58,631 bases of DNA from assembly GCA_009602725.1 (NCBI GenBank), contig WELB01000153.1:1-58631 (forward strand), in the 5' to 3' direction. Position 1 is the first letter of the stretch; each line of letters begins with the position of its first letter. Shown in pieces: positions 7,601 through 15,845 of the stretch. This DNA comes from Spirogloea muscicola (taxonomy: Eukaryota; Streptophyta; Zygnematophyceae; Spirogloeales; Spirogloeaceae). A program made the position numbers and the translations under genes. The notes under the pieces were generated by a model. That model was not told where the DNA came from, did not search any database, and saw only the letters and a program-made list of their open reading frames with translations.

Positions 7601-8600
7601 GTGGCTCCCCTGGCTTCAGACTGCCGCTTATCTGAGAGCTGCAGCTCATGGTTGGCATGCATGACACCATGCTGGATGGCAAGCCAGAATTCAGCTCGGT
7701 ATCCATTGATAGCTTGCATGTCTAGCCTCTACCATTCTGTATTGGAAGGATAGTTATGATTCATTGAAACATGCTATTGTATGAGCCCTTTTGCTCAAAT
7801 CCTTCATCTCAGTCGTTCTAGGAAGATGAGTAGAACTCCGTATGCCAGCCTCTATTGCTGCCTACAACCCCCGGTTGTTTGCGGGCCCATTGATCTGGTC
7901 ATAGCCTGCTGTGGCTGCTGCGATGTCCATGGTGAACACCGCTGCAGCCAGAACTGGGAGGCATCTCTTTCTTGAGCAGAAAGAGATGGTCTGATTTGCG
8001 TTCTGAAGTGCTGCTGCTTCTGCTGCGCTGGGCCAGGTCGTTGCATGCAGCGCGTGCGTGCTTGGAGAGGTTGCTGCCATTGTATGAGGCTTGCAGAGGT
8101 CGGTGGAAATAAGGCTTCGGAGAAGAGGGCTGGGGGATAGGAAGGGCGATGCCTGAAGGCCGCAGCAGAGCAAGGACCAAGTGAGGAAGAGAGAGTGGAA
8201 GAGAGGGGTCTACATATAGAGGAGGCGAAGAAGAGGCATGTAAGGTTTACGCTTAGATGATGCAGTAAGGGTTTAAGGTTATGGGGGTGCTCAGGGTTTA
8301 GCTTAACGGCGGTGAGGGTTTAGCTTAACGGCGGCCAGGAGCATCGGGGGCAAGCTCCCCGCGGCTTCACGACACGTGGCGGCCTGTGCCCGCCTGCCGT
8401 TGACCGCACCCACCCCCCTCCCCCCTCCCGACCTCCCTCCCCCGGGCCACACGGTTCCGTGACCGCGCGCCTCGCCCAGATCCCCCCCTGCCCCGCCCCA
8501 CCTCACCCTCCTTCNGCCGCCGCCGCGCCGCCGCCGCCGAGCTCCTCCTCCTCCCGCCTCTCCTCCTGCTCTCCGGTGCGCCATCCCCTTATCCACGACA
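7601..8600. other. Intergenic spacer between the ABC1 kinase and EGF genes
   Basis: I see no coding exon here. The left part is the 3' flank of the kinase gene. The right part is a GC-rich, pyrimidine-rich (CCCTCC) region at about 8400-8580, probably the promoter side of the EGF gene. It contains telobox-like GGGTTTA repeats (listed separately) and one unresolved base at 8515. Confidence 0.6.
8293..8334 (+). repeat. Tandem 22-bp repeat built on a telobox-like GGGTTTA core
   Basis: AGGGTTTAGCTTAACGGCGG occurs twice exactly, at 8293-8312 and 8315-8334. A related GGGTTTAAGG lies just upstream at about 8269. Telobox motifs (AAACCCTA and variants) are common promoter elements of plant growth and translation genes, so this could be regulatory DNA of the downstream gene. 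That role is inference. Confidence 0.7.
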
Positions 8601-8947
8601 CGACGGATGCGTCTTAGAAGCAGCCTACGACCGGATTCGAACCGGAGACCTTTCCGTTGCCTCGTCGCCTCCCGGTGGTCGGCCTATGGGGGTCTGTGGC
8701 GTCGAGCCCCAGTCGGCCGTGCTTGGCAGCCTCCATGGATGAGCCGAGACCGCGAGCCGCGGCTCGCCTCCTCCCCCTCCTCGGCCGCTCTGGCCCTCCA
8801 TGGCTCACCGCGCACGCCGTCCTGCCTCCTCTCGAGCGCTGCGGCGCCCTTGCCGTGTCGCCGATGCGGGAATCAGCTGGTGCCCGCCGTCGCTTGAGGG
8901 CCCGCTGAGGCGCCGCGCGAGAGCGCATCCTTGACGACCGCGTGCAG

Positions 8948-11900
8948 GCGTGGCTGCGGTCCCCTGCCCGGACGGCAGCCTGCAGTGCGACGCCAATGCC
9001 GAGTGCACCTTCGCCGCCACCGGCGCGGCGGTCTGCGCCTGCTTGCCGGGCTACACGGGCGACGGCCACACCTGCGCCCGTGAGCGAGGCTGCCCATGTC
9101 CTTCCCCTCTCCTGCCTCCACTCGACCTCCCTCCTGGCATTGCTCTTGCACTGCCGTCGCTGGCTCTGATGCCACTCTCCCCAACTGCCACCGCTCCAAT
9201 GTCAGCAGAAGTCGACTACTGCGGGGTCCAGCAGCCGCCATGCTCACCACACGCCACGTGCGCGAACGCGCCCGGCGGGCGCAACTGCACCTGCCTCCCG
9301 GGCTTCCAGAGCGACGGTGTCACCTGTGCTGGTGGGCTGCTAGCCGCTGCTGCCCTCGATCGCTCCTACCTCCACTCATTCTTACGTATCTGTCACAGAG
9401 CGGGAGCTTTCACAGCTGTCCTGCTGTCCATCCTCTCAGTTCAGTATGTGCCTCCCCCCTCTCCTTCCCCCCTCCCATTCCCTGCTCCCGCTCCACTGCC
9501 AAAACCCAAAACCCCGCCGGCCCCTCCCGTTGGAGGTGAGCTTCTTTTCAGCTCATTCTACGTCCGCGCTTGGTGCAGATGTCGATGAGTGCACGGCAGG
9601 CCTGAGCAACTGCTCGCCGCTCGCGACCTGCGCCAACACCGTTGGCGGCTTTTCGTGCAAGTGCCGGCAGTACTACGCTGGCGACGGCGTCACGTGCACC
9701 CGTGAGTGAGCTTGCCATCGACTCTTAGCGCTGTGCAGCCGCTGTCGTCGTGGCCCACGGGCTGAGCAGGCGGTGACGGCCGCGGCAGAGGCGGACCTGT
9801 GCACCAGCAAGGGCATCGTGTGCCAGGAGCACGCGACGTGCGCCAACACGCTGCCGGGGCAGTACCGCTGCATCTGCGATGCGGACTACCGCAGCAAGAA
9901 CAGCTCCAGCTGCATCCGTGAGCGATGCACCCTCTCCATCCTCCCTCTGTCCCTCCTCCCTCCGCCTCTGCCCCTCCCTCGGGCATGCTCACGCCGGCTG
10001 CCCGCTTCTCGGCCACCCCTCCACTGCGCTGTCACCTGACCGCGGTCATGGTGGGGCCGGGCGTGCAGCCATTGATTACTGCGCCAACCGCACGGTCAAC
10101 GTCTGCTCGCGCTACGCCGCATGCACCAGCGTGCCCGGCGGCGTCAGCTGTGGGCCCTGTGCCGCCGGCTTTGCTGGCGACGGCATAACGTGCACTGGTG
10201 ACTGGCTTCGCGCTGCTACCTATCTTCCTATCTCTCTCGCTGCCTCACCTCCTGTCTCTTGACCTCATCTCCTCCCCAGTCCTCTGTCTTCCCCTCTCTT
10301 CTACTCACAGCGGTGCGCTCTGCTGCACTGCGGCGGCCACCACCGTTGCCTGCCGCGCAGATGTGGACGAGTGTGCCGCCAGCCCAGCAGTTTGCTCACC
10401 GGACGCAGCGTGCACCAACACGGTCGGCAGCTATCGCTGCACTTGCAATGTGGGCTTCGCCGGCGACGGCGTCACGTGCACCCGTGAGGCAGCCTGCTCG
10501 ACCCCGCCGCCATTTGAGCGAGTCCATGCCGGTGCTGCCCCCCCACTGCCCTTGCGCAGCTGTTGACCAGCCTGCCAGCGGAGGCGGTGCGGCAGGCGTG
10601 GATGTTTGCGCGACCTCGGCGAACAGGTGCTCGATCAATGCAACGTGCGCCAACACAACGCCTGGCAAGTACGCGTGTGCCTGCAAGCCCGGCTTCACCG
10701 GAAGTGGTTTCACGTGCAAAGGTGAGCGACGCCCATGGCGAGGCCTGCCCCCGTCTGCCCCCGAGATGCTATCGGGCCTGCGATTCTTGCGATGCTTGCT
10801 CACATCTCCTGCTCGTCTTCCCCCGCTCCCCTGCACACAGCGATCGACTACTGCAAGTCGGCAAACAATTGCTCCCGCTACGCGTCGTGCACCGACACCG
10901 CAGATGCTACCGGCTTCATGTGCGGCCCTTGCATCCAAGGGTATGCCGGCGACGGCGTCACCTGCACCCGTAAGTGCCTCCACAGCTCACCACCTGCCCT
11001 TTCCCTGGCCCTTGCTGCCTCCTCCCTCCTTGTCACTCCTTCCTCATGAAGCCATAAAGCCAGTGTGCTGGGTACTGTGCTGCGCCACACGCCCTGACGG
11101 TCTACGATGCTGCAATGGCGAAACGTCCTGCAGCAATCAATGCGTGTGCTGCTGGGCCGTGCTTTGCCAACTCGGCCTGCGCCTCCACCGGACCGGGGAC
11201 GTATAAGTGCACGTGCAATCCAGGTTACCAGAGCACCGCTGGTGGCACCGCCTGCACACGTGAGCTATCTTCCTCTCTCCCTGCTGCTCTCCCCCCCCCC
11301 TCTCTCCTGCGAGTCTGCATGGCCTCCGGAACCTCTCCCCCCCCCCTTCCTTCCCTTCTCTCCAAGTCTTGTTCTTGCTTTCTTGGCACACCTAGCGACA
11401 TACTCTCGAATCCTCTCTCAAGCCACCCAAAGCCTGCAATTTCCGTGGATGTCCAACGAGCCTTATGGAAAGTCCTGACATTCATGTCGTGCATTGCAGC
11501 CATCAACTTCTGCACCGGGGCAACCAAGTGCTCCAAGAATGCCGCCTGCACGCCGCTTGCCGGCGGCTACAATTGCACATGCGCCTTGGGCTATACGGGC
11601 AACGGCTTCACCTGCACCAGTATGCGCTGCTCACCTTCGGCCGGGCTATATGACTGTATGCCCTGCATTTTGAGCTTGGCCGATGAGGTCGCCAGATTGC
11701 CCATTTGCACGTTCACTCAAAGGGCCGCACTGTGCCGCGCAGACGTGGACGAGTGCGCGCTGGCGCTGGACAACTGCGACGGGAATGCGACGTGCACTGA
11801 CAAGCCGGGCTCCTTCTCGTGCGCCTGCAAGCCCGGCTTCGCAGGCAACGGCCTCAAGTGCACCCGTGAGTGGCCTCCGCCGTCGGCGCCGAGTTTGCCG

Positions 11901-14900
11901 CCACTGCTTCAGCCCATCGGCACTGCCACCGCTGACGCCGTCGCCGCCTCCGCCGCAGTAACGAGCTCCTGCACGGCGGGACTGGACAACTGTGCGCCAG
12001 GCGCGATATGCGCTGATACGCCGGGCAGCTTTACTTGCACGTGCCCGCCAGGTTACGACGGCAACGGCACAGCCTGCGCCGGTCAGCAACTCTTGTCCTC
12101 TCACCTCTGTAATTGGTCGTAGAGTATTGCATGCTCCCAGTCGGCGAGCCGCCACCCCCGCTGCTCTGCCCGAGCAGCTGCTAATAGTACTATTTTTCCA
12201 TGCTCCTTGCTGCAGACATAGATGAGTGCGCGCGCGACCTCGACAACTGCTCAGCGAACGCGGCCTGCACCAACACAGTGGGGTCGTTCACGTGCAAGTG
12301 CAACAACGGGTATGCCGGCAATGGGCGCTTCTGTACTGGTGAGCCGCACCGCCACAGTCGCCGCCGCTGCCGCCAGCGCTGCTGCCGTTGCAGCCAGCAG
12401 TCCTCATGTTGCTGATGCTCTGCTGTGCCCGGCGCCGCAGTACAGACATCAATGAGTGCGCGCTGACGTTGGACACATGCGACAGTAATGCGACGTGCAA
12501 TAACACAGTGGGAGGGTATACTTGTGCTTGCCTCCAGGGCTTCACCGGCGATGGCAGGACTTGCTCGTGTGAGGGCCGGCAATCCTTGTAGAAGAGTCTG
12601 CCTGAAACTGCTAGTCAAGGCTGCTTACGTGCTGGAAAGGCTTGGGAAGAGCTTGCTAAGTGCTGGAAGGGTAAAGCTTGTTGCTTGGAGTGCCGCTGTG
12701 TCCTTAATTGGAGCTACTTATCATGCTTCTGGCTGCATGCGCTTGCCTGCAGTGTTGGACCTCTGCGCCAACGGCCAGAATAATTGCTCCGCTGCAGCAA
12801 CGTGCACGCCTGGTCCCGGCAACTTCACATGCGCGTGTAATGATGGCTACTTTGGCAACGGCACCATGTGCACACGTGAGACACCCTCTGTGAAGTCAGG
12901 CCTCTGTTCACAATCTGCTATCCTGGTGTAGAGCTTGCCGTGTTGGGGTCCAGCATATGGCTAATTTTCAACTTAAAACTGAAAGCTATTCTTTAATGAA
13001 CCTCAATAAATCTCTACACTGCTCGCTGACAGTAGAATCACTTCTTCCCTTGGTGCTCCTGTGACGGCTGCTGGGCTGCAGAACAGAATCAGTGCGGTGC
13101 CAGCAATGTGTGCGGGCCCAATGCCGCTTGCCGCATTGTCAATGGCGTCGCCAATTGCTCGTGCATCACTGGTTATGTGGGCACTGGTCAGATGTGCAGC
13201 CGTGAGCATCTTTCCTTATCTTCCCCACCCCCCTTCCAAACACCGTCTTGGAATACCTACATCTAATGACAGATTGTATTACAAGCATGTCTTGCCTGGC
13301 AGGTGAGAAGAAGGAGATATACCTTTCTTGCTGTTGCGTTGGTGCCATGCTGTTGCATGCTGCTTTGTGTTGCTTGTTTATTTCAAATTTGGAAGCATTG
13401 CGAGGAAGCATTTAGCTGCTCATGAAGGTGCAGGCGGTGCTGTTCCCCTTGCGTGCCTACAGCTATTCTGCCCTGCGAGCAGGGCTCAGCAAGTTGCTCA
13501 GGAAATGCGACATGCAATGACACCACACCTGGAAATTACCTGTGCACCTGCAACACGGGCTTTTCTGGTGACGGCAAGATCTGCACAAGTGCGTGCTCAA
13601 ATACTTTCCATGTCCTGCACTAGCTGCGCCCTCCTCCTCAAGAATGCATGTTGTCTACATACTGCTCATGATTCTCATTGTCCTCAGACAAGACGTCAAT
13701 TCCTTGTGGAGGTGGTGTTTGACCACCCTCAGGGAAGCCTTTCTGGTGCAGAGTCGCACATTGCTACAGCCTTTAAGGATCACTGACAATTTTCATGTCA
13801 TTGAGAGTCTGCGGCAGAGTGTATGGGTTTGTAACTCATTAGTCTGTCATTGAGGCTATTAATCAGGTAGTCTATGTATCATGCTGATAAGGGCAGTGGG
13901 TAGTCGGCAGAGGCGCAGGTGTAATCATTCTTTTGCAGGCGAGTTTTCTATGTAATAAGAGGCTGATGGAAGAATTTATTGGGTGCAGTGATCGACGTGT
14001 GCGCAAGCGGTCAAGCCATGTGCGACCCCAAGGCAGTGTGCATCAATTCTGCGATTCCTGGCCAGTACAGCTGCGCATGCAAGGCAGGTTACACGGGCAA
14101 TGGCTCCATATGCACACGTAAGGCGCAGCTGCTGATGCCAACTTGGCATCCGAAAGCACTACTCGATGGCTGCTGTTCATGTCATCGATTCATCTCTGAC
14201 TCCCTGCCGTGCTTGTCTATCCTGCGCCTCATGAGCCCTTTCATATTGTGCTCCTCGCGCTCCAAATGCTAGTTGCTGCAGTCTTGCTGGGAAAGGCAGC
14301 TGAGCTCTCCGCTTGTCAGCTGACTGTCGTCCTTGTGTACACCAGAAATAAGTACAACCTGCTCGCCGCCCTGTAGTCAGAACGCCACCTGCTCGCCTGA
14401 TGACAGCGGCAACAATATCTGCACGTGCAACGAGGGGTTCACGGGCAACGGGGTGTTCTGCCGTGGTCAGTTGTCCTCCAGGGAGGAGAGGATGCAACTT
14501 GTTCATGGTCAAGGAAGACATAGCGTATTAGACGTTGACAGGGAATCTGCAGGAGAAATCATGCTGCATTCTGTTGCAGCTGCCAGGGGCTGAGGAGATG
14601 CTTTGCAATCTGCAGCTGGTGGCGGACCTTGTGGTGGGCCTTGCGGAGGTAATGCCACGTGCGTTATGGACAATAACACAGGCCAGTCGCAGTGCACGTG
14701 CAATCAGTACTTCACTGGCGATGGCTTCACCTGCACGCGTGAGTGGACGAGTCCACCTGATTCGGGGATCGTCTCCAATTTGCAAAACGAAACTCCTTTA
14801 CATCACTCGTCTGTGATGGAATAATTTCTATGATCACAGAGGCCCCATGTCTCTTAACTTGAGCAATTTACGCATGACTTTGAAGATATTAGCAGCACTT

Positions 14901-15845
14901 CCTAGCATTGTAACGAGGGAACCATAGGTCGCAGGTGCCTATCAAGCATTGTCCAGCCACAGATTTACGCGTAGCTGACAGAGCTCTTCTTGATTGCAAT
15001 GTTGACAGAGCTGGACATCTGCACGTATGCGCTTTCCCACTTCACAGCTATTTGCTCGCCATTCGCAAATTGTACAAATCTCGGCCCTGGAGATTACAAC
15101 TGCACCTGCAATCCACCATACGTGGGCGACGGATTTACTTACTGCAGTAAGACTATTTTCTCATTTCACAACTCCACATCGCCACGTGCACTTGACTCAC
15201 ATCACTGCGCTCATCAGAGGCCTGACAGCTTCGTTTGCTTGCACAGAGCTCCAAGGTCATACTTTCTTGAGGTGTCTTGCCATTGTTCTTGGAGTGAATT
15301 GCTAGGACTAGCCGCAGGCATGTGTTGGCCTTACTGCATAGACAGGAAGCCGTGACGTTGTCTTGACGAGGCTGTCACTTAGTCACTTAAAAGATCATTA
15401 AGTTTCCCACTTGAAGCTCGACTACCACGGACATATGAAGGCAGCAGGGACCTGTCATCGATTCTCACCTGTCAATGTGGATGCAGCTCTGCCGGGCCCT
15501 CCGGGCAAGGTGATGAAGCACCCGTGCACCAAGGGCAGGCGCTGCAAGCCGCCGCCACCGCCAGCGCGAGGACCGCCGCCGCCGCCGCACAGGAAAGGCC
15601 ATCACATCAGGTATCCGCCGCCACCCAGTAAGCTTGCAACGCCACCCAGTAAAGGTGGCCACCACTCAGCTGGCAAAGGCCACCATGTTAAGGTTCCTCC
15701 GCCACCAGGGGGCCCCAGGGCTCCTTCGCCCCCTCCAAAAGGCGGCCACCACAAGGCAGGGGTCGGCATGCACTCCCGCCCTCCCCCTTCTCGTCCACCG
15801 CCACCTCCTGCGCCAGTGTCCAAGGTCCCTTCTCCCCCTTCATGA
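8948..15845 (+). CDS. Secreted-type protein with 21 tandem EGF modules and a proline-rich tail (5' end unresolved)
   Basis: Twenty-one EGF exons: 8948-9079, 9209-9331, 9579-9701, 9789-9917, 10069-10197, 10361-10483, 10596-10721, 10841-10969, 11134-11259, 11500-11619, 11743-11865, 11959-12081, 12216-12338, 12446-12568, 12753-12875, 13082-13201, 13463-13588, 13989-14117, 14346-14465, 14616-14738, 15009-15146; tail exon 15487-15845. Each module has six cysteines and ends near G(Y/F)xGxGxxC, the EGF_3 style. Modules 3, 6, 11, 13 and 14 begin DVDEC, DIDEC or DINEC with CxN..G(S/G)(F/Y), the calcium-binding signature. Many NCS and NAT sequons suggest passage through the secretory path. The last 119 residues are Pro-rich with repeated GHH/GGHH and PPPP blocks, resembling a hydroxyproline-rich wall-associated tail. 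No transmembrane segment is visible, and the signal-peptide exon upstream of 8948 could not be fixed. A role in wall or matrix adhesion is inference. Confidence 0.9.

Follow-up and report, generated by a model that had tools for sequence, protein, structure and literature searches.

Long arrays of EGF modules are best known from animals, in fibrillin, NELL1/2, uromodulin and the Notch ectodomain, where calcium-binding modules follow the motif [DNEQ]-[VIL]-[DN]-[EQ]-C ... C-x-[DN]-x4-[YF]-x-C-x-C. The green lineage also has EGF proteins, among them the vacuolar sorting receptor, which combines a protease-associated (PA) domain with a transmembrane segment, and the wall-associated kinase, while plant-type walls hold extensin-type hydroxyproline-rich glycoproteins with Ser-Pro(3-5) repeats that are hydroxylated and glycosylated. 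Here we describe a gene of the unicellular zygnematophyte alga Spirogloea muscicola in which 21 EGF modules, each on its own exon, are followed by a proline-rich tail. It lies on the + strand of contig WELB01000153.1 (assembly GCA_009602725.1), positions 1 to 58,631 of which are called the window. On balance we think it probable that this is a single gene whose product is a structural glycoprotein secreted into the cell wall or mucilage, with an array that grew by exon duplication.

Domains encoded by exons with phase 1 at both borders (class 1-1) are credited, in passages of PMC3927616, with a major role in the assembly of metazoan multidomain proteins. In animals the borders of an EGF module need not coincide with those of an exon, JAG1 exon 6 being an example given in part of PMC2725086; in contrast, all 21 algal modules sit on an exon of their own. 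A lectin survey remarks, in one of its sections, that EGF domains are perhaps uncommon in plants, yet occur alongside lectin domains in chlorophytes and/or bryophytes (PMC6362431). No such gene is described in the titles and abstract openings of the papers found on EGF in green algae, Trebouxiophyceae, Chlamydomonas, Volvox, Zygnematophyceae, cell walls or symmetrical exons, a scope that stops short of the gene models of the Spirogloea genome paper, and the main text of Feng et al. 2024 (PMC11096116) contains no word starting with EGF.

Twenty-one symmetric EGF exons

A splice-site scan around each cysteine module delimited 21 consecutive exons at 8948-15146, each encoding exactly one six-cysteine EGF module. 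Exon lengths range from 120 to 138 bases and are divisible by three in 21/21 cases, with 123 bases the commonest (8/21). Both acceptor and donor are in phase 1 in all 21 exons of the window and of the two further copies described below, the codon being split after its first base. The EGF exons are class 1-1 symmetric with one module per exon, as a preliminary description made from the letters of the window had proposed, and delimitation in three copies confirms the number, lengths and phases that it gave. Its suggestion that modules could be skipped without shifting the frame is also supported, as far as exon lengths and phases can indicate.

Exon 1 lies at 8948-9079. Exon 2 is best placed at 9206-9331, since among its in-frame acceptors (9206, 9209 and 9212) only 9206 is common to the three copies. 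We dropped 9212, where the copy on contig C94 has no AG, and 9209 in favour of the conserved site; the divergence and dN/dS figures below use the acceptors 9212/9209, at most 6 bases off the final one. Exon 7 (10596-10721) has a second in-frame acceptor upstream, at 10560. Modules 5 (10069-10197) and 8 (10841-10969) are C-G-P-C variants, in which two residues and not one separate the fourth cysteine from the fifth (C-x-x-C in place of C-x-C). The full calcium-binding consensus is found in modules 3 (9579-9701), 6 (10361-10483), 11 (11743-11865; its peptide is identical in the three copies), 13 (12216-12338) and 14 (12446-12568). The remaining exons are those of modules 4 (9789-9917), 9 (11134-11259), 10 (11500-11619), 12 (11959-12081), 15 (12753-12875), 16 (13082-13201), 17 (13463-13588), 18 (13989-14117), 19 (14346-14465), 20 (14616-14738) and 21 (15009-15146), all of them, like the others, on the + strand. 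At calcium-binding modules the acceptor falls directly before V/I-D/N-E-C and the donor one residue and one base past the sixth cysteine, probably the same place at which animal calcium-binding EGF exons are cut.

Three copies under purifying selection

The genome holds two further copies, one on contig C69 and one on C94, both syntenic with the window. Homology runs from window base 190 (C69) and base 79 (C94) to 16734 in both, bar gaps and insertions, the largest of which is near 8.2-8.5 kb. Parts of PMC7994812 and PMC11547041 report a genome triplication in S. muscicola. The C69 and C94 copies each have AG at 21/21 acceptors, GT at 21/21 donors, 126 cysteines and no stop codon; because two homeologous copies keep all of this, a chance origin of the array is excluded.

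Divergence per site among the copies is 0.072-0.081 in the EGF exons versus 0.129-0.158 in the introns. Across 875-876 codons in the three copies, dS is 0.21-0.22, dN 0.040-0.049 and dN/dS 0.20-0.22. The 21 EGF exons contain one indel, a 3-bp in-frame deletion in module 21 of C69, against 98 gap runs in their introns, 16 of them multiples of three. These substitution and indel patterns indicate that the array is under purifying selection in all three copies. Of the 21 introns, none could be retained in all three copies without a stop or a shift of frame; for one this would be possible in two copies, and for five in a single copy. An unseen start codon and assembly gaps upstream might suggest several shorter genes or a decaying array, but the lack of stops, the 21 intact splice-site pairs and the purifying selection in three copies make this highly improbable.

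The resemblance of the array to animal genes also brings animal contamination of the gene or scaffold into question. Syntenic copies on three contigs argue against it, as do the wall-type Pro-rich tail described below and other genes of the same assembly, namely those for light-harvesting proteins (several apparently in two or three copies) and GRAS genes (several apparently in triples), as judged by score and span. The PDB matches of one of the light-harvesting proteins are chlorophyll a/b proteins of plants and algae; the top match is the multi-domain chain 9vfj, after which a chain that we take to be from a moss outscores chains presumably from Chlamydomonas. Contamination was thus tested and we regard it as practically excluded, which upholds the non-animal host of the preliminary description. 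The chlorophyte host that it had assumed was not borne out: to our knowledge GRAS genes are absent from chlorophytes, and their presence in the assembly points to a streptophyte.

Identity of the modules

In Pfam searches the spliced protein matches EGF_3 (E 6e-150, 487.6 bits against a cut-off of 28.5, with 16 stretches passing individually) and EGF_CA (E 2.1e-69, 229.9 bits against a cut-off of 27, with 7 stretches passing individually). Both families had been named beforehand as the ones to look for, and both are well above cut-off. Nine families matched in all, each of EGF type except ADGRF3_N (62 bits over the whole protein, no single stretch passing). For module 13, the one module of the 21 for which a structure was predicted, an AlphaFold2 model with a mean pLDDT of 84.1 has an EGF fold; in the alignment used, 5/21 rows open with M, GTG or TTG being taken as a start. 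Its best PDB match by Foldseek is an EGF module of NELL1 (TMq 0.93, 50% identity, E 0.0018), and matches by sequence in the PDB include NELL2 (4.4e-28), Notch1 (1.1e-26) and uromodulin (7.9e-21).

The likeness to animal EGF arrays therefore lies in the EGF_3/EGF_CA modules and in the fold match to NELL1. Unlike those proteins, the algal one shows no partner domain of animal type in its nine Pfam families and ends in a Pro-rich tail of plant type. It also differs from Notch, with no LNR or ankyrin among the Pfam matches and no transmembrane-like stretch, from the wall-associated kinase, with no galacturonan-binding or kinase domain among the same matches, and from the vacuolar sorting receptor, with no PA domain there and again no transmembrane-like stretch.

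The calcium signatures noted beforehand in modules 3, 6, 11, 13 and 14 are full consensus sites and are kept in all three copies. The array carries 25 N-glycosylation sequons in the window copy, 23 in C69 and 24 in C94. The pattern C2-x4-[S/T]-C3 fits 11 modules of the window copy; this is the O-fucose consensus of animals, which the alga may or may not use.

Ends of the gene and nature of the protein

The 21-exon array of the preliminary description stands, but it had missed a leader exon before 8948 and the separate Pro-rich exon at 15487-15845. Part of the leader exon is seen at 8516-8575 on the + strand, where an Arg-rich stretch is followed by LLLLPPLLLLSG and a phase-1 donor, GTGCGC, that by eye would join exon 1. 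The frame is open in the three copies, C94 having two extra Leu codons, and hydropathy over 15 residues peaks at 2.28-2.52. The start codon is out of view because an assembly gap lies upstream of the leader in all three copies (1, 1 and 899 N), the window's single N being at 8515.

We note that 8516-9275 (760 bases) is repeated at 100% identity in C15:1211474-1212233 (L015:3475-4234), where the repeat ends at a single N. Most likely a short contig was misplaced and put twice by the assembler.

The last (22nd) exon, at 15487-15845 on the + strand, encodes a basic Pro/His-rich tail of 118 residues (41 Pro, 11 His, 20 Lys+Arg, no Asp or Glu) and ends in TGA at 15843-15845; the stop is reached in all three copies. 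The tail is Pro-rich and basic like hydroxyproline-rich wall proteins, from which it differs in having few classical Ser-Pro repeats (by eye) and in being fused to EGF modules; most of its prolines lie outside repeats of the extensin type. No membrane anchor was found in these exons: the maximum 19-residue hydropathy is 1.11 in the array and -0.85 in the tail.

Since the leader is hydrophobic and the tail lacks a transmembrane segment, the product is probably a secreted rod of wall or mucilage type and not a receptor. The phrase receptor- or matrix-like rod, used at the outset, thus holds for a rod of extracellular type; its receptor-like half is not supported, there being no kinase or receptor domain among the Pfam matches. 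EGF arrays are common in animal receptors, the PDB sequence matches include the ectodomains of Notch1 and adhesion GPCR E5, and the weak ADGRF3_N match would fit the ectodomain of a membrane receptor, with its transmembrane and inner parts on exons past 15845 or in alternative transcripts. However, a stop ends the last exon in all three copies, no stretch resembles a transmembrane segment, 16734 marks the limit of homology to C69 and C94, and among the ten window reading frames scanned the first gene identified beyond it is a BEACH gene in the opposite orientation. We therefore consider a receptor quite unlikely.

For the secreted structural glycoprotein that we favour, the following picture can be drawn. 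A putative signal peptide, partly seen in the leader, would direct the protein to the endoplasmic reticulum. The 21 EGF modules, with their N-glycosylation sequons, would form a long disulfide-locked rod, which calcium may stiffen locally at the five modules with full sites. The strongly basic, Pro-rich tail, with its plant wall-protein character, could then anchor the rod in an acidic polysaccharide matrix.

Several observations weigh against this picture. The exon model was drawn from genomic sequence alone, and the leader frame contains no start codon in any copy, an ATG after the C69 gap being in another frame. Indels are present in the Pro-rich exon, and the reading frame of its last few residues in the window differs from that in the other two copies. 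With the 40-residue model of module 13, Foldseek returned no match at E <=0.001. Full calcium sites are present in 5/21 modules, of which 13 and 14 form the only adjacent pair, and most of the rod would therefore be without calcium stiffening. Finally, the 21 introns share no mutual similarity at E 0.01, and the case for duplication is therefore drawn from the homology of the modules alone.

Growth of the array

The further apart two modules lie in the array, the less similar they tend to be, though the trend is weak (r -0.19, permutation p 0.024), and adjacent modules are not clearly closer than others (similarity excess p 0.09). In a tree of the modules, which are too short to resolve its deep branches, each module clusters with its counterparts from the other two copies, and the closest pairing is that of module 5 with module 8 (support 0.90). 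Because each module groups with its counterparts in the other copies, the duplications are old and preceded the parting of the three copies. The simplest account would be that one phase-1/phase-1 exon was duplicated through intronic recombination before the three subgenomes parted. With growth by such exons, the reading frame would be kept whenever a module is gained, lost or skipped. Of the two processes first put forward, tandem exon duplication is the likeliest, as we infer from the modules, while shuffling is hinted at only by a second class 1-1 gene.

This second gene came from EGF searches of the genome, which covered 471 contigs (153 Mb) and give lower bounds. The published assembly has 174 Mb in 17,449 pieces according to part of PMC11096116, a difference to be expected if short pieces are missing here. 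Outside the arrays few EGF-type matches were seen (C195, C222, C32, C5, the C15 duplicate and C42/C123). At C42:109697-110297 (L016:3698-4298), three consecutive class 1-1 exons each encode one eight-cysteine EGF-like module, preceded, by eye, by a Pro-rich stretch with a phase-1 donor. A homeolog lies at C123 (L019), where N precede and that stretch is not seen, two places being found and not three. The C42 scan admitted symmetric exons only; the C123 scan admitted all phases and gave several borders, of which the acceptors common to both were chosen. The second gene shares the exon class of the window gene, with no donor-recipient pair of modules seen between them. Class 1-1 EGF exons therefore occur in at least two genes here, though not in all EGF genes; at C5, a lone EGF-like stretch lacks a donor, and none of the acceptors listed for it is in phase 1.

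The genes at C195 and C222 look by eye like vacuolar sorting receptors. At C32:851.0-852.1k (L012:3000-3800) we saw, also by eye, the end of a papain-like protease (KNSWG) together with a LysM-like stretch and a single exon that holds two EGF modules. The window gene shares EGF modules with the green-lineage vacuolar sorting receptor, wall-associated kinase and papain-EGF types; it differs from C32, where two modules lie on one exon, and by Pfam it has no protease-associated or kinase domain.

A possible bacterial source of the modules

A scan of GTDB contigs that required exact matches to peptide patterns, and so is a small sample (2 of 14 stretches kept), gave two loci in metagenome-assembled genomes (MAGs), an intronless 1033-aa frame of EGF modules (L013) and a locus with two modules in view (L014). 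Their head-to-tail EGF modules are up to 72% identical to algal module 13; unlike the algal one-module exons, both arrays are intronless. EGF_3 was matched in 26/57 genomes drawn from the phylum of the L013 MAG, that MAG included. For 17 bacterial modules selected by pattern, identity between algal and bacterial modules averages 0.458, as against 0.420 among the algal modules themselves and 0.565 among the bacterial ones, and the best of the 17 beats the best own-array match for 14/21 algal modules. In one contig of the L013 MAG, moreover, matches are spaced by 123 bases, the commonest algal exon length.

These figures would suit a transfer of modules from bacteria with intronless EGF arrays, followed by intron gain and exon duplication, and gene transfer from bacteria is stated for plant GRAS genes in a portion of PMC9942845. 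However, the bacterial modules are near the family consensus, which alone may raise identity, and modules of 40 residues cannot carry a deep tree, the comparison comprising alga and bacteria only. Introns at the same place in all modules would further need a one-exon ancestor or repeated targeted gain. We regard such a transfer as doubtful, and the identities do not decide descent.

Neighbouring sequence

Past 16734, where homology to C69 and C94 ends, the BEACH-domain gene follows on the - strand. It has counterparts on C2 and C373 with matching profile spans, which suggests a rearrangement or a misjoin. No RNA families or tRNAs were called in the window (ARAGORN for tRNAs); a tRNA-like stretch seen by eye at 8635-8700 on the - strand, in the first intron, was not called by ARAGORN and is perhaps the remnant of a SINE. 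Degenerate plant-type telomere-like repeats (CTAAACCC / TTTAGGG) lie inside the contig at 50802-50870 and, by eye, at 8210-8340.

Implications

A gene design best known from animals is present here, in three intact copies, in a single-celled relative of land plants, whose lineage is their sister group. We raise as a tentative possibility, short of an even chance, that duplication and shuffling of class 1-1 EGF exons took place independently in a streptophyte alga, giving rise there to a family of matrix proteins that combine EGF modules with proline-rich parts; the first module may even derive from a bacterial array. A 21-exon case under selection in three subgenomes, together with a second gene, offers a test of whether the phase-1 exon route is specific to animals or follows from EGF biology and phase-1 introns. 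For Spirogloea muscicola itself, the gene points to a wall or mucilage component that has yet to be studied.

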